Positions 41,025 to 60,026 of a stretch of DNA of 60,026 bases are shown in pieces. The stretch is taken from NCBI GenBank assembly GCA_017467845.1, contig JAFUKH010000066.1, forward strand, positions 1 to 60,026. Direction: 5' to 3'. The stretch is from Lachnospiraceae bacterium (GTDB lineage Bacteria; Bacillota; Clostridia; Lachnospirales; Lachnospiraceae). How positions within the stretch are numbered: position 1 is the first letter of the stretch; each line of letters starts with the position of its first letter. The translations under genes were made by a program, and so were the position numbers. The notes under the pieces were generated by a model. That model was not told where the DNA came from. It worked only from the letters and a program-made list of their open reading frames with translations, and made no database searches.

Positions 41025-41058
41025 TGAATAAATAGTTAATTTAATCATATTTTTTGCG

Positions 41059-41073
41059 ATTTATATGAAAATT
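41059..41073 (-). promoter_or_regulatory. CodY-like box upstream of codY
   Basis: AATTTTCATATAAAT on the minus strand matches the CodY consensus AATTTTCWGAAAATT at 12 of 15 positions. It lies about 70 bases upstream of the predicted codY transcription start and just after the topA stop codon. The left half is exact, the right half is degenerate. Confidence 0.35.
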
Positions 41074-41096
41074 CTGACATTATATACAATCCAGCA

Positions 41097-43249: not shown

Positions 43250-46200
43250 TTAGTCTAAATCGAATAATTCTACGTTAACACATTGCAGCTCTGCATATAC
43301 ATATGGTGTATAGGAAGCCACTAGAGAACCATCTACAATAGAGGAATGTGTCAAAACTGTCCTTCCTCCGATGTAGAAGCTGCTTCGGAATCCCTGTTTG
43401 TCTGTAGCAAAATATTTCAGTGGAATTTCCACCTTATACAGCGTCTCCGGATATAAACTTCCGCTTTGGGTCAATGTTACGGACTTATCCTCTCCGTTCT
43501 CCCTGATATAGGTATTGGCAGGAAGCAGCCAGTCCGTCACCTCCACAAGAACCTTTTCCGAAGATACCTCACTTCCCGCATCCGGTAACTCTGACGCATC
43601 CAGCACATGATAGTCCTCTGCCAAAAGAGCTGACTTATCGTCTGCATCCACCTCCATATAATAGTGAAGCTCCACTTCCTTGGTTCCCTGGGTGATATTT
43701 AAATCATCCACCCTAAAGTACACCTCCACGGTATCGCCGGACACATCAGTATAATCGATAACTGCCTCATTATCATCCGCCTCATTTTCCTGAAGCATAA
43801 AATCATAATAATTATATACCACGTCCGTTGTGCTTCCTCCGGCATTCATGGTCAAAATCTCCGGATTTCTCAGTCCAGCGTTGTATGCAGCTATCATGGT
43901 GTTGATGAAGAGTTTTGCTTCTTCCTCGGTTACTGCATCAAAATATGGATTCGTATCCGTCATTCTTCCGGTAGCGGAATGCCCCATACCGGTATAGATA
44001 ACATTACCCTTGCTATATATATAGTAGTTATTCTTCACATCACCGGGTGCATAATCATAAGTACCACCTGACAGATTGTACCATACAACGGTATCTGTCT
44101 CACCATCCTTGTCATTATCCGCATTGAAATCCAGAGTATAATACTGCTGATGAGTTTCTGCCAAAGTCGGCATGTCACTAATCAGATAAGGATAATTGGT
44201 AATCTGACCATCATTCACTTTTTCTGCCCTATCAGAATAAGTATTTACTCTATTCACTCCCATACCGCTTCGATAATAGCTCACATTTCCATCAGCAAAT
44301 AATTTTTGATTTAAAACATACGTCGAAAAGCCCTGTACCTGGGAAACCGTTTCTTTTCTGGAGGAGTTTGGGGCAAATGCCACATCCGGCATACCATACA
44401 CATACTTTTCTCCATCTTTATATGGCGCAATTATTGTGGAATCTCCTGTCCCATACTTCACTGTATCTCCCATCTGCTCCAAAACCTTACCCAGCCTCAG
44501 CACATCTACATTGCTTCCGCTGGAGACACCATAGGTATCCATTCCCACCAGATTACGCAACTTGATATTAATATTATATCCCCACACCCAGTTACTTCCT
44601 TCACCGCCTTTTCCCGGCTCGTAGTAATAATCTTTTACAGCTTTTTCCTGGTTGTCTTCAATTCGATACTCTGCTCCCAGACTGCTTCCAATCTGTATTG
44701 AGGCATCAGAAACATTGGTAAACGAAGTCATATCATGGGCAAAAAGAACACTCTTTCCACTCTCGATGAAATGTCTGATATTATTATCCGGTATTGGATT
44801 TTCCCCTGTTAAGTCCTTATCGGGTAAATCTGTATCAATTCCCTTCTCCCAGTCAATTCCATCCTTACCATCACTAAATCCCAATATCAGCATATCGTAA
44901 TCGTTCAGAATAATGGGGTCCTTTTTGGTATCCCCATCAAAAAAGCCCCATTCAAATGTTTCCTTGGAAATAGTGGTAATATCCAGAATATAATCATCAC
45001 TCACGTTCTGGGCCACACTGCGGAAATACTGGGTAACATTTCCGCCAATATCCACATACTCATCATCCTCAAAATGACCAATGGACTGCTCCAGATTGAT
45101 ATATCTACCCTCGTCATGATAGTAAATCTGCAGAATCTTTATACGTGCCACTTCCCCACTGGCAAGCTTGGTATAACCTTTATGTTGTGTACGAATGCTT
45201 GGACATCCAGTCTGTGATACCTCCAGTTGCCAGGTAATGCAGCCATAAAAGGAATCCGGCACCTCACGGGACACCTGATACCGTACACCCGTCTTCAGCT
45301 TTGAAACACTCTCCACAATCTGCCCGGTGGATACCTCCACAAGATTGACATTATTCAGCTTCAGCTCTTCATAGTCTTCAGAGAACTTACCGTCCGCGTT
45401 AGCATCCAGATATAATTTACAGGTATAATCATCCCCGAAATCCGCTGCACTGTCATTCTCAATAATAAAATCAAACTGCAGATAATACTTGCCCTCAACC
45501 GGCAGAAGCTGCGTCACATTACTATCTGTTTCTCCGTCAGCCAGATATTTCTCCTTTGTCATAATCAAATCCTCATACTCCGGAGAATACAGGGACAGCT
45601 TAGGTCTGTTAGCATAGAAAGCAAAGGTACTCTTATTTTGCGAAAGGGTATCACTGACAAATATATTCCTTTTGGAGGTGTCTGCCAAAATTTTACTGAG
45701 AAACTCATATAAATAAGACGAATTATCCACTCTCTTCTCATCTACCTTCGTTCCCTGTTCCTTTAAAAGCCCTGATGAAATCACTATAGGATAATTAGCA
45801 TCCAGATAATCAATCAGTGCATTATACTTTTCAACTGACAAATCATTGCCGCTATAACGATGAATGGTGGTCTCTTTTAGGGTAGATGGTGTAGACTCGG
45901 TATCTCTTATATTTCTCGTATAATCCGTGTCCAGAAGACCACTAAGAATCGCAAATTCCTCCACCGTATCTCCCACATGACTGTACAGCAGACCATCCAT
46001 GGAGTCATCGTTATAATCCGTTTCTCCATCCTTGGTCACCAGTCCTGTGGTATTGGAATCAAAGTAAATAACATCATAGGTAGCATTTAAGTCCTCAATA
46101 TGTCCCACAAATTCATTCATGCCCATTACATGGAAGGTAATCTTCCCGGCTTCTACATTCGTCAGACCGCTAAACTCGGCTGCACTCAAAGTAGAAACTC

Positions 46201-48127
46201 TTCCTGCCGGCTCAATCACCAGCACATCCAGATGCTCCTTACTCATCTGTCTCTGATTTTTGAAATTGATTATATAACGAAATACACTGGCATCATAAAT
46301 CTTCGTATCAAGCAAAGCCTTCTGCTGTTCTGCCAAGTACATATTCTCTACAACAATCTCATTCCACACATCATAAAAACCGGCATCAATCTGCTGCTGG
46401 GAGTATTCTCCGACAGAAAATAGACCTCTGTTTTGCAGAGAATTGTTTCCGATAACCAAAGGCTCGTTACAGCTAAACCATACATTGCCCTTTACAAAGG
46501 AAATATCCTTATTATAGTCAAGGTTTCCAAGATTATCTATTAATGTCCCCAAATTCGTGGAATCCCAGTAAAAATCTGCCTTTATATCCGTTCCGTTTTC
46601 ATTATATGCCGGTGCGGACAAGAAGTAAGCCAGTTTCCCCAGATTAGATTTAGATACATTCGTACCCTCACTATCTTTAGATCTATAATTTTGATTTTCA
46701 TCCACTTCCACAAAGGGCTGCAAATCAAAAATGCAAGGTACCTTCTCCATGGAAATATACATTCCAAGAGAAGCCATAACCACGGAAGTAATGTCATTGG
46801 CTGTACTAAAGCTGCCCTCTATTCCTTTGATTTCATTCATGGCGGCACCACCATTTATGTATATAAAATCATAATCCTCAAAAAGCTCCGCACCCTCCAA
46901 AACTGTGGTTACCTTGTCGTTCTCAAAAGCAGTTTTCAGCATAGCCGGTGTCACTGTTTCCACCGAAACACGCAACTTATCATAACTTTGCTCATCCAGC
47001 CCGAATACTTCCTTCTTAAAGACCTCATTATTCGTAATACCACCGGTAAAATAAAGATATGTAGCCTCATAAGAAAAAGCCTCTCCCGGCATTTCACGCT
47101 CTACAGTTTCTACCAATGCATAATGACCGTTGCCCTCTCCCACATAAACAGCCTCACTCATCAAATACACATAGTCTCCCGCAGAAACAGGATTATCGCG
47201 GCTGACCAATTCAAACATCGGCTTACAAATACCGGAAGATCCATTCCAGATTTCTGAAATAGGGTCTCCACCGGATACCGTGTTGTCCCTGCCTGTAACA
47301 GAATTGCTGCTGGGTAACCCATTACCGCTGACGGTCAGACACAGTTCCTCCAAGTAATCCTCTGTCTCTTCCCATACCTCTGCCGCAGTTCCTCTGTACT
47401 CCAGATATCCTTCAGGCTGCAACATATATACATCCTCTAAAGGATTATTTTCTGAAAACACTTTCAGTTCCGTATAGGAGAACGTCTCCCCAATATCCCC
47501 AGCCTTATAATACGGTGTTGTTACACTATTATTGATGGAATCCAAAGAAGTGTTCCTATCTGCAAATGCAGTAAAAACAGCATCCCACTCCCCCTCTCCG
47601 GCACGCAGATATCCACGCTTCACCACTCCGGCAATCTGAAGTCTATTGGCATCCTCCGGTGGATTTTCCTCATATTCCATATAAGGCTCCTCTGCAGAAA
47701 ACTTCTCTACAGAAAACGGGAATACCCCTGCCTCCTTATAATACTCGTTTATCTTCTCTGCCTCTGAGATCAGTTCATTCATAAACATTGCCCTACTCTC
47801 GGCATCCTTCTGCGAAAGAAGCATTTCCTGCCAGGTTCGGTAGGTATTCGTCTCCTCATCATACAGCTTGGAAAATGGCTCCTGTCCACCGATATAATAA
47901 CCAATCTCCCCATCTCCAATCTTCGGTACGATTTCCAGAATACGATATGTCTTTGTATTACTGATATAATCCTCCCTAAGCTGCTCAATGCCCGGCAACG
48001 TATTACTTGCCGCAGTTACCTCTATTTCATCGCTCCATAGGCATACTATAGATGTCACTGCTAAAGCTCCTGCCAGCAGATAACACATTCCCTTTATGAA
48101 GTTCGGATATTTCTTCCAGTTCTTCAT
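43250..48127 (-). CDS. Large secreted DUF5057 protein at the end of the pilus cluster
   Basis: A 1625-residue protein with a signal peptide (about 1-40; GMCYLLAGALAVTSIVCLW), then an extracytoplasmic body with no further membrane segment or sortase signal, so it is probably secreted or held by other proteins. I recognise the DUF5057 type found beside pilus genes in Lachnospiraceae. Several alpha/beta segments resemble Rossmann or glutamine-amidotransferase-like folds (YDFIYINGGAAMNEIKGIEG; YDMLILGFSDGKDGI then ESGKSVLFAHDM; VIYTGMGHSATGR). No catalytic residues can be assigned. It follows the giant pilin by 12 bases and is the last gene before the terminator, so it is most likely part of the pilus system. 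Confidence 0.75.
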   Translation of the reverse strand: MKNWKKYPNFIKGMCYLLAGALAVTSIVCLWSDEIEVTAASNTLPGIEQLREDYISNTKTYRILEIVPKIGDGEIGYYIGGQEPFSKLYDEETNTYRTWQEMLLSQKDAESRAMFMNELISEAEKINEYYKEAGVFPFSVEKFSAEEPYMEYEENPPEDANRLQIAGVVKRGYLRAGEGEWDAVFTAFADRNTSLDSINNSVTTPYYKAGDIGETFSYTELKVFSENNPLEDVYMLQPEGYLEYRGTAAEVWEETEDYLEELCLTVSGNGLPSSNSVTGRDNTVSGGDPISEIWNGSSGICKPMFELVSRDNPVSAGDYVYLMSEAVYVGEGNGHYALVETVEREMPGEAFSYEATYLYFTGGITNNEVFKKEVFGLDEQSYDKLRVSVETVTPAMLKTAFENDKVTTVLEGAELFEDYDFIYINGGAAMNEIKGIEGSFSTANDITSVVMASLGMYISMEKVPCIFDLQPFVEVDENQNYRSKDSEGTNVSKSNLGKLAYFLSAPAYNENGTDIKADFYWDSTNLGTLIDNLGNLDYNKDISFVKGNVWFSCNEPLVIGNNSLQNRGLFSVGEYSQQQIDAGFYDVWNEIVVENMYLAEQQKALLDTKIYDASVFRYIINFKNQRQMSKEHLDVLVIEPAGRVSTLSAAEFSGLTNVEAGKITFHVMGMNEFVGHIEDLNATYDVIYFDSNTTGLVTKDGETDYNDDSMDGLLYSHVGDTVEEFAILSGLLDTDYTRNIRDTESTPSTLKETTIHRYSGNDLSVEKYNALIDYLDANYPIVISSGLLKEQGTKVDEKRVDNSSYLYEFLSKILADTSKRNIFVSDTLSQNKSTFAFYANRPKLSLYSPEYEDLIMTKEKYLADGETDSNVTQLLPVEGKYYLQFDFIIENDSAADFGDDYTCKLYLDANADGKFSEDYEELKLNNVNLVEVSTGQIVESVSKLKTGVRYQVSREVPDSFYGCITWQLEVSQTGCPSIRTQHKGYTKLASGEVARIKILQIYYHDEGRYINLEQSIGHFEDDEYVDIGGNVTQYFRSVAQNVSDDYILDITTISKETFEWGFFDGDTKKDPIILNDYDMLILGFSDGKDGIDWEKGIDTDLPDKDLTGENPIPDNNIRHFIESGKSVLFAHDMTSFTNVSDASIQIGSSLGAEYRIEDNQEKAVKDYYYEPGKGGEGSNWVWGYNINIKLRNLVGMDTYGVSSGSNVDVLRLGKVLEQMGDTVKYGTGDSTIIAPYKDGEKYVYGMPDVAFAPNSSRKETVSQVQGFSTYVLNQKLFADGNVSYYRSGMGVNRVNTYSDRAEKVNDGQITNYPYLISDMPTLAETHQQYYTLDFNADNDKDGETDTVVWYNLSGGTYDYAPGDVKNNYYIYSKGNVIYTGMGHSATGRMTDTNPYFDAVTEEEAKLFINTMIAAYNAGLRNPEILTMNAGGSTTDVVYNYYDFMLQENEADDNEAVIDYTDVSGDTVEVYFRVDDLNITQGTKEVELHYYMEVDADDKSALLAEDYHVLDASELPDAGSEVSSEKVLVEVTDWLLPANTYIRENGEDKSVTLTQSGSLYPETLYKVEIPLKYFATDKQGFRSSFYIGGRTVLTHSSIVDGSLVASYTPYVYAELQCVNVELFDLD

Positions 48128-48139
48128 GAATCAACCTCT

Positions 48140-51010
48140 TTAATAACTAATCCTCATATTACTATATTTCCACTTACCGCTCTCCTGGTCATAAGAAAAC
48201 CATATGGTATACTTGTTGCTATCTTTCCACTGAGAGACCCATCTGCTAATTCCCGACAAGCCAATGGTCATATATTTCTCGTAAGTGATATAATATGTCT
48301 CTCGCGAGCCACTCCGAATTGTTCTTATATAATATCTTTCCCGGGGCGAAACATAAAAGTAAGTATTGTTGCTGTAACCCTGGGACTTTAAGTCGCTCTG
48401 GGACGGACAATATTGAGTCGACGGAAGATCTGATATAGTATAGTTCTCCGTTCTTTCTTCATAGTGGCCTCCCCCATTTCCTCCCGGCACCCATACCGAC
48501 TCAATGATTTCATATTGTTCAACCAGATTATCCGTTACAAACTTTATGTTAAAGCCATATTTACAACCATCCATAAGCTTGAAGTTATCGGTCTCATAGT
48601 AACCTCCTATTCCCGCTGCCCAGTTACCTTCATATACCACGGTCATGGTACTACCCTTCTCCGCATAGTACTGATTCAGCGAATCCGGCACCTTAACTTC
48701 AATATAATATCCGTAAGCATCCTTACCGGAAGTTACATCAATGTATCCTTCATGATTAATCTCACTTGTATAATCGTTCATGGTAAAATAGCGGTTTTCA
48801 TTTGGTTGAATGGTATACCCTGCCTTGCCATCTATCATACAGACGAAACGCCCATCATTCAGACTATAGTCATCTATTTCCGCAGCTGTAGATACATGCC
48901 AGCCTCCTGTCAGGCGATAGTAGGTTCTGTATGTCTTATACTTCTCCTCAGGCATACTCTGATCATCTTTATAAAGATATCCGTCATAATACCCATTCAG
49001 CATAGCATAGCTATTACTTTCAGAAAATGGTGTCGCGTAGATGGTTGTTTTACCATTTGTATCCCAAGAAGACTGATTGATTCCATCCAGCGAATATTCC
49101 ACATTAACCGGGGCAATATTCTCCGTATATGGACCATAACTAATTCTTTCTCCGGAATTATTTTTACAATGAATAATCATTATTTTTGCCTTGGTTATAC
49201 TATGAGGATTACCATATTTATCACAAAAAGTACTGGTGTAATATGACTCACTTGCTTTCCATCTAAGCTTTACATTCCCTGCGCTCTCGCCATATTCATA
49301 GGGAAGGAATAAAAGCTCACACACCGTACCAGACTGCTCCTGCACAAAATAATCACTATATTCGGTATCCGGAGGGTCGTCATTATCGTAACCTCCCTGA
49401 TGACCATAATACGCATGCTGTATTACATTATCACTAGAATCACAGAAATCCACCTGAATTTCAACCCAGTCACCATTATCCCAGTTATCCTCAAGCATTG
49501 ACAGATCAATATCCACCACACCATTACGTTTCCAACCCTTGGACTCATCAATCGGGCTATTTGTCTCCTTCTTACTGATAACCACATTAATGGTCTCCTG
49601 CACAGCAACAAACTGTCCCGTCACAGAATTATATCTCTCACGTTTACACTTAAAGGTAATCGGTACACTCACCTTCCCATTATCGCCGTACTTAATTGTA
49701 CTTTTTACATCAAACTGTAGCTTTCCCGTCTCCTGAGCTTCCCCAACAGAAGTATCCAAAGTCAGATAATTGCTATAATCATAATATACCGTATTTCCCT
49801 CAGAATCCTTCCCTTCTACCGGTTCAAACGATATGGTGATACCACCCATATTGTCAATGGTCTGTTCCATATCGCTCACAATTAAATCACCAATATGAAC
49901 TCCTGTAAAGGATTCCAGATCAATACAGATATTCTCCTGACCTGCCGCCACACTAATATTATAGCTTCCATTCTGCACATTACTGCTGCTTCCCAGCACC
50001 TGCCCATCTGACAGACAATAACTCTTCGTACCGAGCTCTGTAATTGTACGGATACCTACCTTGATATTATCAGACCTAAGACCACTTGCATCCTGTGTCG
50101 CATAAACATTAATACGATTGATTTCTCCATCAATGGTGCTTCCGACCTCATCGGTACCTATGAAAAGTGTTGTTGTGAGGCTACTAACCTGTTCTGAAAA
50201 AAACGTGCCGGTACTTGTGGGACAAACTTCACCCGGCACATCCGCAAAATGCCATTCTACTGACTGGGATGGCATCAGTCCCACATTACTTGTTACCCTT
50301 GCCGCCAGTTTTTCATTCTCTCCCGGCCAGATGGATACACGCTCCGGATATACATCAATCCCGGTTGCCTCCACTTCCGGCGGATCGGGTACATAGATTT
50401 CATCCTCGGAAGCATTCATCAAAATATCGTTACGAAGCTTTACTGCATGAGACGTTGTATACTCTCTTCCGGATTCTTCCTTTAAGAAGGTGATGCTATA
50501 GCGGATTGTTTTCTTCTCCAAAAGCTCCGATAAATCCACAGAGAAATCAGAAACAGCTTCTGCCAGAAGTGCTTCCGAAGAAATGCTTGTACCCTTGGCA
50601 GCCTCAGAAAAGAAAATCTTTTTCTCGTCCTCATCCCAGCGAATCCGATAGTATTTCTCATTGTTATATACATACAATTCCTTGGAATCCAAATCCGTGA
50701 CACTGATATCTGAGTCCGATATAATAAGTCCGTTTGGTGCCTCCTCCGACTCCTCGGCCCCCTCTGCCAGCTTCCCCACATATTTGTAGGACACGCCTCT
50801 TTGGGCATCTATCAAAAGGTCATGAATCTGATTGGCCACCAGCTGGGCATCATACTGCACATCGGTCTCTGCCACACCATTATTATACTGTCTTTGAGAC
50901 ACGATAAGGAAGGAGGCAATGGCACCTCCCACAATTGTCATGATTGCAATGGTCACAATCAATTCCACCAATGTGAATCCTTTGTTCCCCTGTCTCTTAA
51001 AAATCTTCAT
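48140..51010 (-). CDS. Giant minor pilin (J/W position) with Ig-like domain
   Basis: A 956-residue type IV prepilin-like protein. The start is the ATG at 51010, seven bases after GAGGA. The leader ends at Gly in NKG, followed by FTLVELIVTIAIMTIVGGAI with the conserved Glu5. After the pilin stalk and a globular part (to about 200), a segment ATGIDVYPERVSIWPGENEK resembles a Big/Ig-like domain (about 215-300). The remaining 650 residues are beta-rich and strongly aromatic towards the C-terminus, with no assigned domain. Its size is several times that of ordinary minor pilins, suggesting a tip adhesin. The position after the H-type pilin fits the J/W role. Confidence 0.8.
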   Translation of the reverse strand: MKIFKRQGNKGFTLVELIVTIAIMTIVGGAIASFLIVSQRQYNNGVAETDVQYDAQLVANQIHDLLIDAQRGVSYKYVGKLAEGAEESEEAPNGLIISDSDISVTDLDSKELYVYNNEKYYRIRWDEDEKKIFFSEAAKGTSISSEALLAEAVSDFSVDLSELLEKKTIRYSITFLKEESGREYTTSHAVKLRNDILMNASEDEIYVPDPPEVEATGIDVYPERVSIWPGENEKLAARVTSNVGLMPSQSVEWHFADVPGEVCPTSTGTFFSEQVSSLTTTLFIGTDEVGSTIDGEINRINVYATQDASGLRSDNIKVGIRTITELGTKSYCLSDGQVLGSSSNVQNGSYNISVAAGQENICIDLESFTGVHIGDLIVSDMEQTIDNMGGITISFEPVEGKDSEGNTVYYDYSNYLTLDTSVGEAQETGKLQFDVKSTIKYGDNGKVSVPITFKCKRERYNSVTGQFVAVQETINVVISKKETNSPIDESKGWKRNGVVDIDLSMLEDNWDNGDWVEIQVDFCDSSDNVIQHAYYGHQGGYDNDDPPDTEYSDYFVQEQSGTVCELLFLPYEYGESAGNVKLRWKASESYYTSTFCDKYGNPHSITKAKIMIIHCKNNSGERISYGPYTENIAPVNVEYSLDGINQSSWDTNGKTTIYATPFSESNSYAMLNGYYDGYLYKDDQSMPEEKYKTYRTYYRLTGGWHVSTAAEIDDYSLNDGRFVCMIDGKAGYTIQPNENRYFTMNDYTSEINHEGYIDVTSGKDAYGYYIEVKVPDSLNQYYAEKGSTMTVVYEGNWAAGIGGYYETDNFKLMDGCKYGFNIKFVTDNLVEQYEIIESVWVPGGNGGGHYEERTENYTISDLPSTQYCPSQSDLKSQGYSNNTYFYVSPRERYYIRTIRSGSRETYYITYEKYMTIGLSGISRWVSQWKDSNKYTIWFSYDQESGKWKYSNMRISY

Positions 51011-51070
51011 CCAAAGTTCCTCATGCAAAGCCGGCAGAACACTCTGCCAATGCTCCTTTCAGCTTACTGT

Positions 51071-51577
51071 TTAATAGGATATTTTCCCGGTTAAAGTTGT
51101 AAATGTTGCCACCCGCTCCGTGCTACCCTTATAAAAGGTAATGCTTGTACACTCGCCGTGCATGCCACCAACTACCTGCACCTCATTCAGAGCACCACTG
51201 CTCCGGTCAAAAGATAATTCCAATCTTTTACCATTTAGGTCCACATTCGAGCCACCAATCTCGGCTTTCACGCACACACCCTGTTCTCCAATCATAACCG
51301 GCGTTTCAGCCTCACTTCCTTTATACGCCTGCATATACACGCCGGTAGCATCCTGATACAGCTCTACACGCACATTCTTAAAGCTCATGGTCTTGGTCTT
51401 TACTTCGCTCATATTGCCTGCAAAATCCTGCACGCAACCATTTACCTGCATTCTGGGAACCAGCCCCATCATGGTGATTCCCCCTCCTGCAAGCACAGCC
51501 GTAATTGCAATTACCACAATCAGCTCCACCAGAGAAATACCCCGATTATTCAGTTTCCATGGATTTTCCTTCTTCAC
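51071..51577 (-). CDS. Minor pilin, GspH/FimT type
   Basis: A 168-residue prepilin with leader ending NNRG and mature start ISLVELIVVIAITAVLAGGG, including Glu5. The C-terminal domain is beta-rich (about 90-165) with one pair of Cys that might be bonded. The start chosen is a GTG at 51577, with AGGTGA five bases upstream; a GTG at 51586 is the alternative. It lies between the K/X-type and J/W-type pilin genes, matching the GspH/FimT position in a minor pilin priming complex. Confidence 0.85.
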   Translation of the reverse strand: MKKENPWKLNNRGISLVELIVVIAITAVLAGGGITMMGLVPRMQVNGCVQDFAGNMSEVKTKTMSFKNVRVELYQDATGVYMQAYKGSEAETPVMIGEQGVCVKAEIGGSNVDLNGKRLELSFDRSSGALNEVQVVGGMHGECTSITFYKGSTERVATFTTLTGKISY

Positions 51578-51593
51578 ATTTCTCACCTGTTTT

Positions 51594-53822
51594 CTACTTC
51601 TTTGTCCAATTGATATAGGTAATCACGCTATCCAGATTCACATAGGCAGAATCATTCAAGGAATTGCCCTTCATCACATACTTCTCTCCATCGATAAAAT
51701 AGGCCTCCATCAGAGTCTGACCATTCAAGCCCACCGGTCTGTGCTGCAAAAGCTTTGTTACCGCACTGCTGTCTGCCGCCAAAGTTACACCGGAACCGGC
51801 AGTCACTGTCACTTCTCCACCTGCAATTATCAGTCCGGCAAAATCGCCACTGACCTCCACATCTCCGGTCACAATCACTAACCTGCAATCTTTATTACCG
51901 GATGCCGAGCCCACCTTTACCGCCACATTACCCTCATCATTATTATCTCCGATAAGTGCCTTCATACCGTTCAGCTCATACTCGGTAACACCGATATTCT
52001 CCACTGCACTCTGTAAAATCAGATTCTCATACACGTCCTTACCAAGCTCAGCTTCCGTAAGACCATTGTAATTGGTGCTCAGCTTACTACAGAGAGCTGC
52101 ATAATTCTTCACCATGGTACTCTTCTGCTGATCCAGTGCTTTCTTATCGTCACTGTCCATAGAATCTGTAATGGTGCCCTTAATAGGCTCTATGTATCCG
52201 TTGCTTCTGCTGTAGGTCAGTACATTTCCACTGGTCAGCTGCTGACTGGTGGCACGGTCAAAAAGTATATTATTGTTATATTTCTCCAGATATTTTTCCA
52301 TACGCTCTTCACAGGCAGACATATAGTCCCGATAATATCTATCCGCCTGCTCTGTCGAATCAAATTTCAAATATACATAACAAATTGTCTCTGAACCAAC
52401 CCGTTTAAATATAGTCTGGAAGCTGGAAGAATTTAGTCCATAGGAAGAAAGGGGATTTTTCAGCGCACTCACTGCCACATTCTCATCCAGCTTCTTATAT
52501 CCCAGCAAGGAAGTATAAGTATTAAACCAAGCATTATATTCCTCTTCGGACATGGGATTTCTTCCCACCATCACCTTCGTCTGACCATCCTCCATTACCG
52601 TACCCAGACACTCTGCCGGAGCCAGAAATGCAATCTGATCCGTCTTCATAGCCACAGAGGTACCCAGCATCACCTGATTCGTATTATAGGAAGCAGTCTC
52701 CGACATATCACCGTTATCCACCTTAATGGAGTTTCCGTTGATATATGCATTGCCACAAAGCATCAAGGTATCCAGCCCATTCATATCCAAAGTGACATTC
52801 TTACAGTTAAGTACAATGGCACTGTTGCCCTCAGAGATGCCCTCCAAGGATGCACTTCCATCCCCATATCCATAGTAATTGCCGGAAAGGGCTACATATC
52901 CGTTTCTTCCGGAAATGGTCAAATCATCTTGCACATACACATCTCCATCCGTAGACAGTACGCCACTATCCTTCACTGCAATTCCCTTACTCCAGAAGCC
53001 GTCTCCCTGCACAGAAAGGCTGGTAGTGGCATTCACAACCGTCTCGCCCTTCGTTATAAAATAGCCCCTGTTATCCACGCTTACCTCTGCTCCTGTAACC
53101 AATACTATCCCCTCGTCTCCGGCATACAGATTTCCGGTAACTGTTACATCGCTTTGGTCAAAGGTCAGCTTATCCCTGGCAATGATACTGTAGTCAAATA
53201 CATTAGGGATTACCGTTGCCTCATTTAATTCCACCTCCGGATAACCAATGCAGATATCCGTTTCGATACAGGAATAGTAGTCTCCGTCAGAGTATTCGAT
53301 GGATAAAGCCTTCAGAATAAGTCCTTGGGTTGTTGCTTCCAAATTTTTCGCATCTTCAGCCAGCGTACAACGAATAGTCAAAGGTCCGTTATCCGGGTCA
53401 CATTTTCCCTGCAAATCCGCATCCAGCATAGCTACCAATAAATCCACATCATAACGCTCATTCATTGCGGTATAATCTTTAATAGCTGCTTCAATTGCAG
53501 TCATATAATCCAGCTTAAACTGGGCCACACGATACTTCTCCGTAAATTCATCCACCTTATAGGTCTGCATGGCCTTAGAATATGCCTCATTAATGGCATC
53601 CGAAGCCACCTTCTCCAATCCCAGATGAATCTGATCCAGCACCTCTTCTGCTGAGTAGAAGTTCTTCTTTGCTTCCCTTTCCGTCATCTTCATCTTGAAG
53701 TTCACAAGAGCAAGGGACATCAGAACGGAAGCAAAGATAGCCACCAGTGCAATTACTACAATAACCAGCACCAGAGCCATACCCTCATTATTCAGTTTTT
53801 TCCGCTTTTGAAAAAACTTCAT
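51594..53822 (-). CDS. Large minor pilin, PilX/GspK type, with beta-helix-like region
   Basis: A 742-residue prepilin-like protein. The leader ends NNEG, followed by MALVLVIVVIALVAIFASVL, lacking Glu5 exactly as tip-most GspK/PilX pilins do. The stalk continues as a coiled coil (about 30-130). Residues about 200-360 show repeated short strands around Val, Gly and Asp (VTVTGNLYAGDEGIVLVTG; DVYVQDDLTISGRNGYVAL), as in beta-helical or bactofilin-like folds, and similar repeats recur near 650-700. The ATG is nine bases after GGAG. It probably forms the pilus tip with the neighbouring pilins. Confidence 0.8.
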   Translation of the reverse strand: MKFFQKRKKLNNEGMALVLVIVVIALVAIFASVLMSLALVNFKMKMTEREAKKNFYSAEEVLDQIHLGLEKVASDAINEAYSKAMQTYKVDEFTEKYRVAQFKLDYMTAIEAAIKDYTAMNERYDVDLLVAMLDADLQGKCDPDNGPLTIRCTLAEDAKNLEATTQGLILKALSIEYSDGDYYSCIETDICIGYPEVELNEATVIPNVFDYSIIARDKLTFDQSDVTVTGNLYAGDEGIVLVTGAEVSVDNRGYFITKGETVVNATTSLSVQGDGFWSKGIAVKDSGVLSTDGDVYVQDDLTISGRNGYVALSGNYYGYGDGSASLEGISEGNSAIVLNCKNVTLDMNGLDTLMLCGNAYINGNSIKVDNGDMSETASYNTNQVMLGTSVAMKTDQIAFLAPAECLGTVMEDGQTKVMVGRNPMSEEEYNAWFNTYTSLLGYKKLDENVAVSALKNPLSSYGLNSSSFQTIFKRVGSETICYVYLKFDSTEQADRYYRDYMSACEERMEKYLEKYNNNILFDRATSQQLTSGNVLTYSRSNGYIEPIKGTITDSMDSDDKKALDQQKSTMVKNYAALCSKLSTNYNGLTEAELGKDVYENLILQSAVENIGVTEYELNGMKALIGDNNDEGNVAVKVGSASGNKDCRLVIVTGDVEVSGDFAGLIIAGGEVTVTAGSGVTLAADSSAVTKLLQHRPVGLNGQTLMEAYFIDGEKYVMKGNSLNDSAYVNLDSVITYINWTKK

Positions 53823-53831
53823 ATAATCTCC

Positions 53832-55145
53832 TTAGTTTCTAAGAGTTCCTTTCATCTCTGCTAACAATGTATCCCACATAAAAATCTCATTTACATCCAC
53901 AGTCATATCCCTATCCGGATTCGCCTGATAAATCTGAATAGTTACATCAAACAGCAATTCGTCCTTGTTCGGATTGGTCAGTGCTGTAATATCAAAGAAA
54001 TCCTCAAAATCCGTAGTTCTCCGCACACCATTAAAATAATACTCTGCCTGCAACCTTCCCTCCATCAAATCGGTAGGGTTCTTTAATGCATATCCCAAAT
54101 TAGTCTTAATATCCACAGAGGATGCATCCAAACCGTCTGCATTCCCTTCATTCACACTCACCTTTACACTATAAGATTTGGATAGTTCCTGTCCCAGCGC
54201 TGCTTCGTCATCCGTAGGTTGCTGCTTAATCAGATATAAATCCGTCTCATAATCATCCATATTCTTTACTACAATATTTTCCGTCCAACCGGTATCTATC
54301 CACTCAAAGTGAGGATTAAAAAACACAAATACATTGCGAAGTGTCCTTGACATATTCTCTTCATTACTGAAAACCATATCCGTCACTTCGTACATTTCAT
54401 CCTGACAATCATAACGATAGGTAGCATCCACCTGATAACCTATGGCACCGCTGAGCTTGACATCCTCATCAATCTCCACTGTTATGGTTCTGGTAATATC
54501 ACTGGGAGAAAGGGCATCGTACACACCCTTGGACTCAAAGTAAGACACTGCTTCTCTGTCATACACCGCTGCGTTGGAAATCACCGCATCATAGTTGGAG
54601 TCCATGGATGGAATATGTACCATATCCTTACTACCGATGGAGGTCTCCTCCGGTGCCTTCACCGTCACAAGCGCATCAAAACAAGTATTCTCCATCTTTA
54701 TATTTCGCAGACAAAAGTGATAGGTGTCCACAGCAGAATTGTAGCTTGCAGTTATTCCACCATCTGTGCTTATCGCGTAAAGCTCCTTTTCTGCAAAGCG
54801 CATCACATTAGCATTCACATCATACCCGCTCTGGGACACCAACCTGAAATTCGTGATGTCCGACGCAATTCCCGACTCATCTGTCACAGTCACCACAGGA
54901 TAAGCAATCTGCTGCATCAGACTATCCATATCCTCGGCCTTGATATTCTCCAAAATATTCTGAGCCAAGGATGTGGCCTTATGTGCCAGCTTGGCTTTGG
55001 CATTAATCTTTGCTGCCAGCACAAAGCAGCTGTAAAAGCCCCCTGCCACGATGCTGAGTATAGAAATGGCTACAAGCAGCTCTATCAGCGTAACACCCCT
55101 ATTATTCATTTTATTTCTAACGAATAATCTTTTAACCTGTTTCAT
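53832..55145 (-). CDS. Minor pilin, PilV/GspI type (437 aa)
   Basis: A 437-residue prepilin with leader ending NNRG and mature start VTLIELLVAISILSIVAGGF, including Glu5. The following helix (KLAHKATSLAQNILENIKA) resembles the I/V class of minor pilins. The remainder is beta-rich and unassigned. The start is the ATG at 55145, although a TTG at 55157 and an ATG before MNNRG are possible; the ribosome site is weak (GGGAC). It is the first minor pilin gene after a hairpin that follows the pilO-like gene. Confidence 0.8.
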   Translation of the reverse strand: MKQVKRLFVRNKMNNRGVTLIELLVAISILSIVAGGFYSCFVLAAKINAKAKLAHKATSLAQNILENIKAEDMDSLMQQIAYPVVTVTDESGIASDITNFRLVSQSGYDVNANVMRFAEKELYAISTDGGITASYNSAVDTYHFCLRNIKMENTCFDALVTVKAPEETSIGSKDMVHIPSMDSNYDAVISNAAVYDREAVSYFESKGVYDALSPSDITRTITVEIDEDVKLSGAIGYQVDATYRYDCQDEMYEVTDMVFSNEENMSRTLRNVFVFFNPHFEWIDTGWTENIVVKNMDDYETDLYLIKQQPTDDEAALGQELSKSYSVKVSVNEGNADGLDASSVDIKTNLGYALKNPTDLMEGRLQAEYYFNGVRRTTDFEDFFDITALTNPNKDELLFDVTIQIYQANPDRDMTVDVNEIFMWDTLLAEMKGTLRN

Positions 55146-55171
55146 ACCATGTCCCAATATAAATCATAAAA

Positions 55172-55196
55172 GGCATGCGTCCTAAACGCGCATGCC
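55172..55196 (-). terminator. Hairpin between the pilO-like gene and the minor pilins
   Basis: A perfect 8-bp stem GGCATGCG/CGCATGCC with a nine-base loop, followed on the minus strand by TTTTATG. It may act as a partial terminator or processing site separating the membrane alignment genes from the minor pilin genes. No strong promoter is visible after it. Confidence 0.55.
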
Positions 55197-55203
55197 ATCA
55201 TCG

Positions 55204-55917
55204 TTACTCTGCGTCCGCGTCCTCGGACGACTCAACTGTCCCGAAAATATTGTCTGTTCCTTTATGAATTTCATATAACTCCGGCTCCATATAAACCACA
55301 TCAGAACCATATAAAAAGTAGGAGGTCATAGCAAGATTGCCACTTAATCTTCCCGTAGTTTCATCAAAGGAGAGAACAATGCTGTCAATTGCCTTACGCT
55401 CCTCTTTATTATAGATGGTCTCAATCATCTCCTTGATCCCGCTATAGCTGCAATCAATTCCCATATTTACCTGGGTATTATAAAGCGTATATACCGGATA
55501 TAAAGGCTCCACCGCAATAGGATTCACCGTAGAAATATCCGCCTTAGAGGTATCGTAAGTAGTGGTGTAGGATACCGCCGGATCCGTAAAGGACATACTA
55601 TTTACAAATATGTACTCGCTACTGTCGCGGTTATCCATCTGATAAGCCAACTTCATATCATCTTCCGGGAGAACATTTGCCGGGAACTCCCGCACCAAAG
55701 CAGAAATCTCCTTGTGCATACGATCCATCTCCGTCTCGTAAAATTCCCTATCCGGAATCCAGCCTTCCATAATGGCAATCTCCGTCCTCATCTGCGCATT
55801 CTGAGATTCCAACGCAGCCGTTTTTTCTTCCATTTTTACATATACAAACTGATAAGCACAGAAGGCAAGCAAAACGCCGATAAAGCCTAATAATAAGTTT
55901 ATTTCACTCTTTTTCAC
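55204..55917 (-). CDS. PilO-like pilus alignment protein
   Basis: A 237-residue protein with a short cytoplasmic start, one membrane segment (about 8-28), a coiled coil (about 30-75) and an extracytoplasmic ferredoxin-like domain (about 140-215; YSGIKEMIETIYNKEERKA then DSIVLSFDETTGRLSGNLAM). This is the architecture of PilO, which with PilN forms the inner-membrane alignment complex. The start is GTG, seven bases after GGAGG. It follows the PilM-PilN gene by 14 bases. Confidence 0.8.
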   Translation of the reverse strand: MKKSEINLLLGFIGVLLAFCAYQFVYVKMEEKTAALESQNAQMRTEIAIMEGWIPDREFYETEMDRMHKEISALVREFPANVLPEDDMKLAYQMDNRDSSEYIFVNSMSFTDPAVSYTTTYDTSKADISTVNPIAVEPLYPVYTLYNTQVNMGIDCSYSGIKEMIETIYNKEERKAIDSIVLSFDETTGRLSGNLAMTSYFLYGSDVVYMEPELYEIHKGTDNIFGTVESSEDADAE

Positions 55918-55931
55918 TTTTTGCCCTCCCC

Positions 55932-57593
55932 CTACTTGTTTTCTTCCAGCAAGGCTTCTTCTAAAGCCATCTGCTCCATAGATTTATAAATACAGCTTAC
56001 GGTAAAAGTTACCACCCTGTTATCACTCTCGTCAATATCATCCGATACCCCCATGACAGTCACGGAATCCACAGACCTCATGTTTCGAAGTTCCTGTACA
56101 GCATTAGCCATTTCTTCCTTGGTATCCACCTCGATATTCATGGTTACATTGTCCAATGTAGCTCCAAAGGTTTTCACTCGAATATTGGCGGGCATCTTCT
56201 CCTCCAGTTCCGCAATAAACTGTAGCATATCCTCATTGTGATTCTCTGTCACCGCATACAGATTCTTTACCTGTGTGTATGCATCCTGTGTCACAACATA
56301 GTTGGCATGTATACTTCGAATATCCACCAGTTCATTCATCCGCCGTACATTGCTATTATACTCCTGCTCTGCCTGCATATAATTCAGATAGGACACTGCT
56401 ACCAGTGCAAAGGCAATCAAGGTACCTCCAATCAACAAAAGCATTGCCACAGCAGTATAGTCATTTCCGCCGCTCTTCTTTGCTTTGCTATCCTTATCCT
56501 TCTTGTCCCCTACAAGGCCAAGAGGAGCTACGACCGCACCGATACAGGCAATATATTCACCAAACATGCCATCCTTAAAGGCCTTCTCCACATTGAAGCC
56601 TTCCAGATGTATCAGGCTCTTGGTCTTCACCCCCAGTTCATTGGTAAGAAGCTTGGACAGACCGCTGAAATTGGAGCCCATACCGGTAATATACACCCGC
56701 TCTACACTTTCTCCGTTATTACGAGAAGCATGATAATCCATGATTCTTCCGATACCGCTTATTAACATTTTCATAGAGTTGGCAACGGTCTGTTTTGCAG
56801 CAAGAAGCTGTGCGTCCTCCTCCTCTTCCTCCGCTTCAATCAATTGCTTTCCGCCAAAGGAAAGTCGAGTACATGTCTTACGCGTACTAAGTTCCACTGC
56901 CTCATCATAAGTTGGAGCACCAAAAACAGGAGTTTCCATAATTGTTTCCAGTGCATCATTGATACCATAAGCTACATTTCTTTGCAGGACAATGGTCTTC
57001 TCCTTTAGGATGGTAACAATGGAGGAGTTTTCATCAATCTTCACCACCATCTGAATGCCTTCTTCGCATTCATTCTTCACCATCTGGTAAATACTGTGAC
57101 CGGAATAGTCAAATGCTGCCAGCTGCTTACCGATTGCCTGTGCAATATTACGATAGCTTTCAATCAAGCTTAAAGGAAAAGCAAGCACCAGTGCCTTATA
57201 CTTTTCAATGGTATTCTCCTGCACTGTTCCCAGAATGATATGTCCCAACTCATACTGTGACAAATCGATGGGAAAATAATCACTGGCATTATTCTCAATC
57301 AGCGAAGCTATCTGCTTGGGCTTTGCTTTAGGAATAATTACCTCTCTGTTTGCAATCTTAGAAGATGCCACCGTAAATACCACTCGCTTACAATTCATAT
57401 GATTGGCGGATAAAGTACTCTTAAGTGTCGCTACCAATTCCTCTGTCACCTGAATCTCCCCATCAACGACGGAACCCTTGGGTGTAGGAAATTTAGCATG
57501 GGCATATACCTTGGGATTCTTCACCTTATAATCTGTCATACAGATTCTGGTTGTATGCATTCCTATTTCAATACTTAGTACTTTTTCAGCCAT
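55932..57593 (-). CDS. PilM-PilN fusion protein of the type IV pilus
   Basis: A 553-residue protein that combines two normally separate proteins. Residues 1-360 are an actin-like PilM ATPase (LSIEIGMHTTRICMTDYKV, the internal PKAKPKQIASLIENNASDYF, and YITGMGSNFSGLSKLL). A membrane segment (about 380-402) follows, then a coiled coil and a ferredoxin-like domain (about 455-540; NIRVKTFGATLDNVTMNIE), which together are PilN. The fusion puts the cytoplasmic and periplasmic parts of the alignment complex on one chain. No PilP is seen, as usual in Gram-positives. Confidence 0.85.
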   Translation of the reverse strand: MAEKVLSIEIGMHTTRICMTDYKVKNPKVYAHAKFPTPKGSVVDGEIQVTEELVATLKSTLSANHMNCKRVVFTVASSKIANREVIIPKAKPKQIASLIENNASDYFPIDLSQYELGHIILGTVQENTIEKYKALVLAFPLSLIESYRNIAQAIGKQLAAFDYSGHSIYQMVKNECEEGIQMVVKIDENSSIVTILKEKTIVLQRNVAYGINDALETIMETPVFGAPTYDEAVELSTRKTCTRLSFGGKQLIEAEEEEEDAQLLAAKQTVANSMKMLISGIGRIMDYHASRNNGESVERVYITGMGSNFSGLSKLLTNELGVKTKSLIHLEGFNVEKAFKDGMFGEYIACIGAVVAPLGLVGDKKDKDSKAKKSGGNDYTAVAMLLLIGGTLIAFALVAVSYLNYMQAEQEYNSNVRRMNELVDIRSIHANYVVTQDAYTQVKNLYAVTENHNEDMLQFIAELEEKMPANIRVKTFGATLDNVTMNIEVDTKEEMANAVQELRNMRSVDSVTVMGVSDDIDESDNRVVTFTVSCIYKSMEQMALEEALLEENK

Positions 57594-57641
57594 TGTTTAT
57601 CCAGCCTTTCAATTTATCTATGTTTTGGAGTTTTTATAAAG

Positions 57642-57819
57642 GTCATTTTGTTAAGAAATCACTCCGTTCAGAAGTGATATGTTTTATTCTGACACGCTCT
57701 CACTCCATGAAAAACGTAACAGTACTAAGCCCGAAAACACCTCGCAAAGTACTGACGTTTTTCAAGGGTCTTCATAAAACATATCGTTTCTTCTCTGCGT
57801 AATTTCTTAACAAAATGAC
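57642..57819. repeat. 178-bp near-perfect palindrome (structured element)
   Basis: The outer arms GTCATTTTGTTAAGAAAT (57642-57659) and its reverse complement (57802-57819) match over all 18 bases. A second 18-bp pairing (57670-57687 with 57774-57791, two G-U pairs) follows after symmetrical 10-base internal loops. A third 10-bp pairing (57708-57717 with 57755-57764) and a fourth of 7 bp (57720-57726 with 57748-57754) close a 21-base loop. No target-site duplication, open reading frame or transposase is visible. It occupies most of the gap between the prepilin peptidase gene and pilMN. Confidence 0.85.
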
Positions 57820-57856
57820 GCCAACACATTACTCCCTTATATTCATCCTCAGTAGA

Positions 57857-58615
57857 CTATAGTCCAATATAGCCCAGATACCAGGTAATCATCTCGTTGC
57901 CATACAGCGCACAGATGGCTATCCCCATCGCAAGGTAAGGTCCCATAGCAAGTACATGGTCCTCCCCTGTAAATCTCATGCGAAGTATATGAATGACGGA
58001 GCCCAATATACAGCCCAGCAGAAATGCCGGAATAATCAACTTCCAGCCAAGCACAAGACCGCATGCAGCCATCAGCTTCACATCTCCTCCGCCCATAGCT
58101 CTTCCCCCTGATAACATATAAATCAGGTACAAAAAAACACTGACAGCCAGGAATCCGATCAGGTACCCCTTCCAGCCCGGAAGGTCTGTAATTACCCGAA
58201 GAATCCCCAGCCCCAGAATAAAATAATTGATTCCCACAGGAATCTCATATGTTCGAAAATCAATCACACTCAAAGCAAGAAGTGCACTAAACAGTAAACA
58301 GTAGAGTAGGGAATCTACGCTTACACCACATTTCATAAAAACCAAAATATACAAGATTCCATTCAGTGCCTCAATAATGGGGTACTGAATGGAAATCTTT
58401 GCTTTGCATTGTCTGCATTTGCCACCCAGCAATAACCAGCTAAACAGTGGTATTAAATCATACCAATGCAGCTGATACCCACAGTTCATACAATGAGATC
58501 TGGTGGTTACTATATTCTCTTTTAAGGGCAGCCTGTAGATAACTACATTTAAGAAACTGCCGATGATAATTCCGTACAGGAATATGATGGTGTATAGTAA
58601 GATTGTTGGGAGCAT
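57857..58615 (-). CDS. Prepilin peptidase (A24 family)
   Basis: A 252-residue membrane aspartic protease that removes prepilin leaders and N-methylates the new N-terminus. Zinc-binding cysteines are in CMNC (42, 45) and CRQC (67, 70). Catalytic aspartates are Asp119 (LSVIDFRTYEIP) and Asp178 (GGGDVKLMAACG). About eight hydrophobic segments are present. It should process all five prepilins encoded here. It follows the major pilin gene by 14 bases. Confidence 0.95.
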   Translation of the reverse strand: MLPTILLYTIIFLYGIIIGSFLNVVIYRLPLKENIVTTRSHCMNCGYQLHWYDLIPLFSWLLLGGKCRQCKAKISIQYPIIEALNGILYILVFMKCGVSVDSLLYCLLFSALLALSVIDFRTYEIPVGINYFILGLGILRVITDLPGWKGYLIGFLAVSVFLYLIYMLSGGRAMGGGDVKLMAACGLVLGWKLIIPAFLLGCILGSVIHILRMRFTGEDHVLAMGPYLAMGIAICALYGNEMITWYLGYIGL

Positions 58616-58629
58616 GATTCATAAATTCC

Positions 58630-59136
58630 TTAAGGTGTAGCTACTACATTGTCAATTCTTCCACTTAAAGCAGCTGAATAAGTTTCCATTGCAGTAACAA
58701 CAGTATTAGTAGCCGCATTATTAAAGGTAACACTACCATTATTAACGGTTGCTGTGATAGTACCATCAGCTGCGTTTGTTCCGGAAGTAACTTCCCAATC
58801 ACCTGCTATCGCATAAGTTCCCATCACAGCCGCTATTTCAGCTTCCAAGTCGCTATCTACAGTACATTCAACAGAAATAGTATTAGTAGCTGACGCTGTA
58901 TGTGGAACAGTAATTGTAACTTCTGTAGCTGAACCACCTCTCGCATTGTAATCAACCAAAGAAGTTTCCACTACAGTCAACACAGAATCTACTGCAGAAA
59001 CATCACGAGACTTTCTTGCATTCTCAATGTATCTGGTATAAGCAGGTGCAAGTACACCAACTAATACTGCCATAATGGCGATTACAATGATTAACTCAAC
59101 AAGTGAGAAACCTTTATTGTTCATTTTCTTGTTCAT
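58630..59136 (-). CDS. Major type IV pilin (PilA-like)
   Basis: A 168-residue prepilin with an eight- to nine-residue basic leader ending NNKG and mature start FSLVELIIVIAIMAVLVGVL with Glu5. The start is the ATG at 59136, seven bases after AGGAGA; an in-frame ATG at 59160 lacks a ribosome site. The globular part is rich in Thr, Ala, Val and Asn, with few charges and one Cys. Its simplicity compared with the neighbouring minor pilins suggests it is the main fibre subunit. Confidence 0.9.
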   Translation of the reverse strand: MNKKMNNKGFSLVELIIVIAIMAVLVGVLAPAYTRYIENARKSRDVSAVDSVLTVVETSLVDYNARGGSATEVTITVPHTASATNTISVECTVDSDLEAEIAAVMGTYAIAGDWEVTSGTNAADGTITATVNNGSVTFNNAATNTVVTAMETYSAALSGRIDNVVATP

Positions 59137-59231: not shown

Positions 59232-60026
59232 TTACAAGTTACTTAAAGAATCGTACATGGTCATCATCGGCATCAGACATGCTCCCATGATAGGGATTAC
59301 AATGCCTGCCAGAAGTACGATAACCATTGGCTCCATAACAGCCATCAGAGTCTGGGTTGCCATTTCCACCTCTTCCTCATAATAATCAGCCAACTTATCT
59401 AACATTTCCTCTGTACTACCGGTCTCCTCACCAATTCGTATCATATGATACACCATAGGTGGGAATAGTCCGCAATCCTGCAAAGGTCTACTCAAAGGCT
59501 GACCTATCATAATATCATCCCTTGCATCAAACAAAGCATCTCGGAAGTAGAGATTTGTCATAGTACTTCCTACGATTTCTACCGCTTCCACCAGTGGCAC
59601 ACCTGCGCCTGTCAGTGTACTTAATGTACGTGCCATCTGGGCAGCAGCACTCTTTACGACGAAGTTTTTAAATGCAGGTATTTTCAGTATAATTTTCTGG
59701 AAGAAATACTTGCCAACTTCCGTACCATAAAAACTTAGCAACCCAAATACAATGCCGGCAATCACCGGAACCAGAATGAACCACTTCCCTATAATAAAAT
59801 CACTGATAGCAACCACCGCTTTGGTCAGCCCCGGCAGCTCCGTACCCATATCCAGAAACATTTCTTCATAGGACGGAATTACCATTACAAGCATAACCAC
59901 TACTACGATAAGTGCCACTACCAATACTACCAGTGGGTAGGTCAACGCCTTCTTTACCATGGCCTGAGTCTTATTGGAGCGTTCAAACTGTACTGCCATT
60001 CGCTCCATGGAGATATCCAGACTACC
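59232..60026 (-). CDS. pilC: Type IV pilus inner membrane platform PilC (GspF family), C-terminal part
   Basis: The last 264 residues of PilC, cut by the window end; the reading frame remains open to base 60026 (GSLDISMERMAVQFERS). Three membrane segments and the second cytoplasmic domain (ARTLSTLTGAGVPLVEAVE, GQPLSRPLQDCGLFPPMVYH, MIRIGEETGSTEEMLDKLA) are typical. PilC couples the assembly and retraction ATPases to pilin extrusion. The ATPase genes pilB and pilT are probably upstream, outside the window. Confidence 0.93.
   Translation of the reverse strand, partial: GSLDISMERMAVQFERSNKTQAMVKKALTYPLVVLVVALIVVVVMLVMVIPSYEEMFLDMGTELPGLTKAVVAISDFIIGKWFILVPVIAGIVFGLLSFYGTEVGKYFFQKIILKIPAFKNFVVKSAAAQMARTLSTLTGAGVPLVEAVEIVGSTMTNLYFRDALFDARDDIMIGQPLSRPLQDCGLFPPMVYHMIRIGEETGSTEEMLDKLADYYEEEVEMATQTLMAVMEPMVIVLLAGIVIPIMGACLMPMMTMYDSLSNL

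Follow-up and report, generated by a model that had tools for sequence, protein, structure and literature searches.

In diderm bacteria the type IVa pilus has been characterised with the minor pilins PilH, PilI, PilJ and PilK, capped by PilC/PilY1 (PMC10191384, PMC7541494). The clusters of Myxococcus xanthus encode four minor pilins together with a soluble PilY1 carrying a type I signal; PilX of this species lacks the glutamate at mature position 5 (Glu5) and is placed on top, next to PilY1, which is part of a priming complex (PMC7541494). Calcium dependence of PilY1 has also been reported (PMC8833165). Here we analysed a contig of 60,026 nucleotides from a Lachnospiraceae bacterium (GenBank assembly GCA_017467845.1, contig JAFUKH010000066.1; the whole stretch is called the window), whose minus strand carries a type IV pilus operon with four minor pilin genes, two of them giant, followed by a gene for a protein of the DUF5057 family (PF16480). 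The reading to which we give slightly better than even confidence is that of a retractable type IVa pilus whose H-I-J-K tip complex would be capped by a secreted DUF5057-family protein, similar to PilY1 in role but unrelated to it. Lachnospiraceae have no outer membrane, and how the pili of such bacteria grip surfaces is poorly known.

Other described systems share single traits with this locus. The modular pilins PilB and PilC of Streptococcus sanguinis carry a vWA and a lectin-type module, respectively; the modular pilins on record exceed 1,200 and fall into 264 architectures (PMC8179133). GspK of type II secretion has an alpha domain inserted in the pilin beta-sheet, lacks Glu5 and is the proposed end subunit (PMC8179133, PMC7541494). 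In the type IVb pairs TcpB-TcpF and CofB-CofJ a large homotrimeric tip minor pilin goes with a secreted soluble partner, whose N-terminal peptide possibly makes the contact (PMC9565799). A link with cellulose has been described for the type IV pili of Ruminococcus albus and R. flavefaciens (PMC6916266, PMC3672088), and a 2023 review tabulates as non-pilin tip effectors PilC for type IVa pili, PulA for type II secretion and TcpF for type IVb pili, with none for the Com pilus (PMC10191384).

The minor pilins and the DUF5057 protein

The original prediction, made from the DNA letters alone, had described four minor pilins, including products of 742 and 956 residues, followed by a DUF5057 protein of 1625 residues, and these genes were confirmed from the sequence. 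The genes, the parts of their products and the site that follows them are listed below.

53832..55145, minus strand: I/V-position minor pilin, 437 aa; N_methyl 1.1e-8, PilV model 4.5e-7 (under its cut-off)
51594..53822, minus strand: K/X-position minor pilin, 742 aa; leucine at mature position 5
53211..53822, minus strand: K core pilin, N-terminal part, about residues 1-204; matched by small K pilins of relatives
51666..53210, minus strand: large body of K, about residues 205-719; missing from the small K pilins of loci L104, L106, L109 and L110
51597..51665, minus strand: C-terminal end of K, residues 720-742, with YINWTKK; weak matches in L104 (independent E-value, iE, 0.16), L106 (0.18) and L110 (0.089)
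51071..51586, minus strand: H-position minor pilin, 171 aa, GTG start; N_methyl 2.2e-6
48140..51010, minus strand: J/W-position minor pilin, 956 aa; Glu5 present, N_methyl 4.5e-7
50426..51010, minus strand: pilin module of J, about residues 1-195; compared with small J-position pilins of relatives
48143..50425, minus strand: C-terminal graft of J, about residues 196-956; from profile comparison with the J pilins of relatives
43250..48127, minus strand: DUF5057 protein, 1625 aa; follows the minor pilins as the final gene, here and in relatives
44732..45847, minus strand: PF16480 (DUF5057) match, residues 761-1132; E 2.7e-42, 146 bits against a gathering score of 27.9
45389..45406, minus strand: calcium-type loop D-x-N-x-D-G, residues 908-913; D.[ND].DG in 49/50 rows of the DUF5057 alignment
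43253..43267, minus strand: C-terminal motif LFDLD, residues 1621-1625; conserved end in relatives
43244-43217, minus strand: terminator-like hairpin, 12 pairs and then TTTTTCATTC, directly 3' of the DUF5057 stop; consensus match only

The genes are separated by 9 nt (I-K), 7 nt (K-H), 60 nt (H-J) and 12 nt (J-DUF5057). The last gap and the hairpin after DUF5057 are consistent with the predicted shared transcript, and a single transcript for the operon is likely; where shuffled sequences gave 10.7 terminator-like sites, the hairpin scan returned 20 for this region. Order, size and the missing Glu5 are the basis on which the letters H, I, J and K were assigned. The major pilin, I, H and J score above the cut-off of the general N_methyl model, while the subunit-specific models all fell under their curated cut-offs (PilX_N 0.0083 and GspK 0.012 for K, PilV for I as listed).

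Mature K begins with M-A-L-V-L after Gly14, and position 5 is therefore Leu and not Glu, in agreement with the prediction. Glu5 was present in 0/79 K pilins with a placeable leader from the 80%-clustered loci of the DUF5057 survey; the leader was unplaceable in 9/88, and these were left out of the count. For comparison, 17 pilus loci from genomes without PF16480 (L100-L116) were read. PF11104 is too broad to define pilus loci, matching 9/14 control genomes in frames of many lengths; PilMN-type matches were chosen by frame length and profile start, and the operons without PF16480 are those among the matches listed. Four of them (L104, L106, L109 and L110) encode small K pilins of 189-348 aa, which match the window's K at about residues 1-204, in the case of L106 with a gap. 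A second match, weak in each case (iE 0.089-0.18), covers its last 22-24 residues in three of the four, with nothing in between, and the K of L109, which ends in YYTNYKKE, matches the first part only. Since the small K pilins match at most the two ends, the giant K reads as an ordinary pilin core of about 225 residues into which a body of about 515 residues appears to have been inserted before the C-terminal end.

The predicted beta-helix-like repeats were not confirmed: hhalign detected no internal repeat in K, the PDB profile search with the K alignment gave no usable relative but a non-significant match to an antifreeze protein (E 0.21), and Bactofilin matched 1/44 K proteins, at 0.0074. 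No domain of known kind was found by Pfam in the window's own K. In the clustered loci with a K body, K ranges from 444 to 1303 aa with a median of 792.5, so that 742 aa is ordinary for the group; the largest K-type pilin, of 1303 aa, lies at L148:1579-5490.

The J-position pilins (n=93) comprise 52 small (<340 aa) and 41 larger proteins. All 52 small ones match the J profile and stop at position 205 or earlier, from which it follows that the 41 larger ones, the window's J included, have a C-terminal graft; by this profile comparison the giant J is an ordinary pilin of about 195 residues plus a C-terminal graft. J varies from 168 to 1075 aa (median 226), the window's 956 aa being near the top, and the medians of I and H in clustered loci are 438 and 184.5 aa. 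The sizes of K and J are thus unusual against textbook pilins, as had been claimed, but for K they are normal in the lineage. The Ig-like domain attributed to J could not be recovered: Pfam recognised no domain in the window's J graft, and the J proteins of relatives (n=39) contained F5/8 C in 2/39, Big_2 in 2/39, Big_5 in 1/39 and an immunoglobulin-type model in 1/39.

The DUF5057 protein begins with a basic stretch and a hydrophobic segment, judged by eye to be a Sec-type/type I signal, and inspection by eye revealed neither a pilin leader nor a cell-wall anchor. Its D-x-N-x-D-G loop is of a type that we take to bind calcium. For the analysis of its end, 141 complete DUF5057 proteins were reduced to 116 clusters at 80% identity (63 from family genomes, 52 from the species collection and the window), leaving out genes with incomplete ends or of <600 aa. 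Counted from the C-terminus, Leu occurs at -2 in 111 clusters, Phe at -4 in 92, Leu at -5 in 86 and Asp, Asn or Glu at -1 in 97; an LFxLD-like motif ends 90/116 clusters, as against 0.23% of internal positions and 2/395 ends of neighbouring pilins. On the side of K, W.[KRN] is found near the C-terminus in 80/100 K-position proteins. The LFxLD end of DUF5057 and the NWxK end of K were tested for an association, and none emerged (Fisher p 0.54; 60 of 100 loci, the strict pattern having failed to find K in the 40 left out); a better interpretation of the NWxK end is that the pilin core terminates there.

Profile comparison within DUF5057 matched region R2 (600-830) with R4 (985-1430) at 86.8%, and a ThuA profile matched R4 at 43%, the six other comparison targets of the ThuA test reaching at most 4.7%. 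The C-terminal region matched the loop-bearing domain weakly (61%). These are hints of repeated units, which we would call Rossmann-like, and of two related domains, presumably beta domains. H1131, D1132, H1326 and E1403 are invariant in 50/50 rows of the alignment and H1383 is conserved in 49/50. Among 20 full-length relatives, Pfam found Ig_2 in one and Flg_new repeats in two. The PDB search with the DUF5057 profile yielded no usable relative (best E 0.34). The alignments used throughout held 39/63 listed relatives (A1), 49/72 (A2, DUF5057), 43/44 (A3, K) and 38/43 (A5), and 19 (A4) and 14 (A6) were taken by hand.

PF16480 was detected in 63/299 genomes of Lachnospiraceae, in 0/14 control genomes and in 5/348 genomes of the phylum, of which two are Lachnospiraceae and three belong to one other family; the single same-genus genome examined lacked it. 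A species-genome collection was scanned with one peptide pattern, and the best 80 of 214 relatives were used, 68 of them from Lachnospiraceae, 5 from other families and 7 assigned to none. The nearest among these 80 (L131, 63% identical) is a member of Lachnospiraceae from roe deer colon, and named isolates and strains are among the relatives with DUF5057, Kineothrix alysoides and Lachnotalea glycerini being examples that have the locus.

Genes were called by a simple open-frame script and labelled with profiles seeded from the window's proteins, and the comparison of gene neighbourhoods across Lachnospiraceae that had been proposed revealed that the arrangement recurs. At least two Glu5-type pilins are encoded by the four preceding same-strand genes in 97/99 clustered DUF5057 genes that have 4 kb or more of upstream sequence, and in 79/99 the gap to the first upstream pilin gene is 60 nt or less. 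The K body lies among the four readable upstream genes in 88/90, with K third upstream in 78, as in the window. In the other family (3/3 genomes found), DUF5057 proteins of 1533-1547 aa are encoded between pilus genes and a K-like pilin of 599-632 aa, on the strand opposite to both. The pilus genes C, A, D, M and O were recognised there by profile; PilB and PilT are what we presume two further genes to encode. The DUF5057 gene lies beside pilus genes there too, so its link with type IV pili extends beyond Lachnospiraceae.

Some loci depart from the single arrangement. L076 has tandem DUF5057 genes (1633 and 1661 aa) behind a single minor-pilin set, genome G039 has two separate pilus loci (L073 and L098) whose DUF5057 proteins are very long (2334 and 2392 aa), and in L195 the DUF5057 gene is followed by a number of additional pilin-like genes that may form a second pilus cluster.

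Co-occurrence and the possible role of the DUF5057 protein

Reading the operons without PF16480 revealed that four of them (L101, L103, L111 and L115) carry, in the DUF5057 position, a relative of 802-1024 aa. These short forms match the N-terminal part of DUF5057 (E 1e-15 to 1e-24) and lack the PF16480 centre; two of them, from L111 (iE 0.0011) and L115 (0.039), show a further, weak match to the C-terminal part, and each of the four has an LFxLD-like motif at its end. We counted either PF16480 or its shorter relative as the partner. The table covers 68 loci with a recognised PilM of at least 350 aa, after L104, L114, L117 and L118 had been removed by hand (contig end, incomplete set, unfused PilM). 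K body and partner were both present in 58, both absent in 8, the body occurred alone in two (L100 and L116) and the partner alone in none (Fisher 6e-9, with no kinship correction). L100 was counted as partnerless, yet it has a 935-aa protein ending in SIKDLD in the right place (weak match). The co-occurrence is a hint that K and the DUF5057-family partner may work together.

The preferred reading, a retractable type IVa pilus with a capped tip, can be put as follows. The four minor pilins H, I, J and K would form the tip, and K is proposed as the end subunit because, having no Glu5, it need not have anything docked above it. Its body of about 515 residues would be the landing platform for the DUF5057 protein, with which it would be in physical contact, and the graft of J might add a second surface. 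The DUF5057 protein would play the part of PilC/PilY1, priming assembly, gripping a surface or glycan, or both, and this without homology to PilY1. Gene order, the absent Glu5 and the co-occurrence speak for the tip complex of minor pilins and secreted partner that had been predicted; tip display and adhesion are the parts that we infer. By analogy, adhesion is the likeliest use, because F5/8 C, Big_2 and immunoglobulin-type modules occur in some relatives and because type IV pili of Ruminococcus are used on cellulose. The predicted target, gut surfaces, found no support: the sequences give no indication of what is bound, and for some relatives (named isolates and the three other-family genomes) we had no evidence that they came from the gut.

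A narrower version, which we regard as possible and hold only tentatively, is that DUF5057 and its shorter relatives take the place of PilC/PilY1, without being related to it, in bacteria that have no outer membrane, docked on the K body, with LFxLD as the docking or pilus-loading signal, and that in loci without the partner the K body has mostly disappeared or can no longer be recognised. If this were true, a family of unassigned function in 63/299 family genomes and in named strains would gain a role and a testable docking site, and the "giant pilins" would reduce to ordinary pilins with added modules.

Several observations weigh against the capped tip. In the PilM tree the association is reduced to three independent contrasts if supported branches are required; all three go the same way, but they are too few for significance (sign test, p 0.25). 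Four of the eight loci with neither element have a large K all the same (L102, 608 aa; L107, 672; L108, 487; L113, 710), which matches the first part of the body only, to profile position 274-306 of 731; this partial match indicates that there the body has diverged or been replaced and was not lost. L112, outside the table with its PilM unrecognised, is similar, its large K of 628 aa matching the first and last parts of the body, and these five loci may all use a different module or a diverged one. The clear exception is L116 (genome G101), where K has the full-length body and no DUF5057-family partner was found in the genome, by a search that also missed known short forms. Pilins are not found directly upstream of DUF5057 in L054 and in L059, the latter a 652-aa fragment. 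In the other family the K body gave 0 matches and the LFxLD end is unrecognisable too. The invariant His, Asp and Glu residues, finally, would fit an enzyme as well.

That last point leads to the reading of DUF5057 as a secreted ThuA- or amidotransferase-like enzyme, held on the pilus and working on a polymer. The R2-R4 match, the ThuA match set against the six other targets and the conserved H1131, D1132, H1326, E1403 and H1383 all point that way. Yet Pfam found no convincing enzyme domain in the 20 full-length members (one HEPN_Toprim_N match, 0.0073), nothing passed the NCBIfam cut-off in the window's protein, the PDB offered nothing by sequence, and the short forms do without the PF16480 centre; we consider an enzyme improbable. 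Somewhat less improbable, though still unlikely, is that DUF5057 is cargo, riding on the tip and released as TcpF is in the type IVb system, so that LFxLD would be a recognition signal and the protein would act at a distance instead of as a fixed adhesin. The absence of a cell-wall anchor, as seen by eye, would suit this, and so would the short motif at the very C-terminus, the same sort of feature as the secretion signal at the N-terminus of TcpF (PMC9565799). On the other hand, LFxLD may be simply the last strand of a beta domain, given the weak profile match to the loop-bearing domain. Nor is carriage needed for secretion in Lachnospiraceae, which we take to be without an outer membrane to cross.

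An assembly or wall-transit factor, which would prime the pilus or aid its passage through the cell wall and not be an adhesin, seems to us the least probable of the three, if barely less so than an enzyme. The DUF5057 gene adjoins the minor pilins in nearly all loci read, and PilY1 itself is in a priming complex (PMC7541494). However, 10/68 loci of the strict table are pilus operons with no recognised partner, and their existence argues that DUF5057 is not needed for such pili in general. The capped tip remains our preferred reading.

The rest of the operon and its surroundings

All pilus genes of the window lie on the minus strand, in the order PilC-like, major pilin, PilD, PilMN, PilO, I, K, H, J, DUF5057. 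Those upstream of the minor pilins are:

59232..60026, minus strand: presumed PilC-like platform protein, 3' part; contig end inside the gene, identified by its place in the operon
58630..59136, minus strand: major pilin, 168 aa; N_methyl 2.1e-8
57857..58615, minus strand: prepilin peptidase PilD; A24_N_bact 3.4e-36, Peptidase_A24 2.3e-19
55932..57593, minus strand: PilM-PilN-like fusion, 553 aa; PilM_2 5.9e-16, TIGR01175 2.8e-23 (under its cut-off)
55204..55917, minus strand: PilO-like protein, 237 aa; identified by its place and by conservation among relatives, with no Pfam family passing its cut-off

The PilC-like product was so named from its sequence and place, and the PilN part of the fusion was deduced from the length of the protein. 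A PilB-like ATPase gene (L216:4922-6505) runs off the end of contig C89 of the host genome, so the pilus operon probably continues over an assembly gap to the window. A PF00437 match of 350 aa on contig C101 is the PilT-like ATPase of this genome, the label PilT within PF00437 being our assumption. The type IVa set is thus present, with pilin, PilD and PilM identified by Pfam, the PilB-like ATPase on C89 and the PilT-like retraction ATPase on C101; PilC, PilN and PilO are presumed from sequence and place.

Downstream of the pilus operon (36030-43085) lie what we take to be topA, a CodY-like gene and genes sized about 134, 150, 110, 536 and 338 aa, which would fit a flagellar operon; the order pilus operon, topA, CodY-like gene, flagellar-size genes recurs in L131, L133, L141 and L142. 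No cyclic di-GMP riboswitch was found within the window. In 1/8 loci searched, a cyclic di-GMP-I riboswitch (65 bits) lies upstream of a relative's pilus genes (L043:352-475) and would fit surface-linked control of that pilus.

Comparison with known systems

Modular pilins and tip-capping proteins are already known in kind, and the claim that the complex has no characterised equivalent was too strong for the principle, which PilHIJK-PilC/PilY1, S. sanguinis PilB/PilC, TcpB-TcpF and CofB-CofJ all represent. For DUF5057 itself the claim holds as far as searched: "DUF5057" and "PF16480" occurred in no paper of the searched library, most subscription papers lying outside its coverage.

The J of the window, a core with a C-terminal graft, resembles S. 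sanguinis PilB and PilC in having a module grafted on a pilin, but no known domain was recognised in the modules of the window's pilins, the cluster has four minor pilins, and it also encodes a partner that is not a pilin. K shares with GspK an extra domain inside the pilin module, the lack of Glu5 and the proposed place as end subunit, although its body is not recognisably related (NF037980 E 0.012, N-terminal only, far under cut-off). With TcpB-TcpF and CofB-CofJ, compared by description, the locus has in common a large, putatively tip-located minor pilin, a secreted soluble partner and a short terminal peptide that may be the contact; unlike TcpF and CofJ, the conserved peptide of DUF5057 is C-terminal, and there are four minor pilins. 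The Ruminococcus species are likewise Gram-positive gut bacteria with type IV pili, but there the pilin itself is the cellulose-linked protein, and the available parts of those accounts mention no DUF5057-like protein.

In anatomy the locus is close to PilHIJK with PilC/PilY1, where one cluster also encodes four minor pilins and a large soluble secreted protein, K/X lacks Glu5 and the partner has a calcium-type loop. The two differ in that K has a body of about 515 residues and the conserved part of the DUF5057 proteins is PF16480: the PilY1 domain PF05567 was absent at E 0.01 from the 20 full-length proteins checked (a search of 200 family genomes also gave 0/200, but no control matched either and it is uninformative). 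Because the anatomy is close to that of the M. xanthus clusters while no sequence relationship was found, we propose that the DUF5057 protein may be a PilY1-like tip protein of independent origin.

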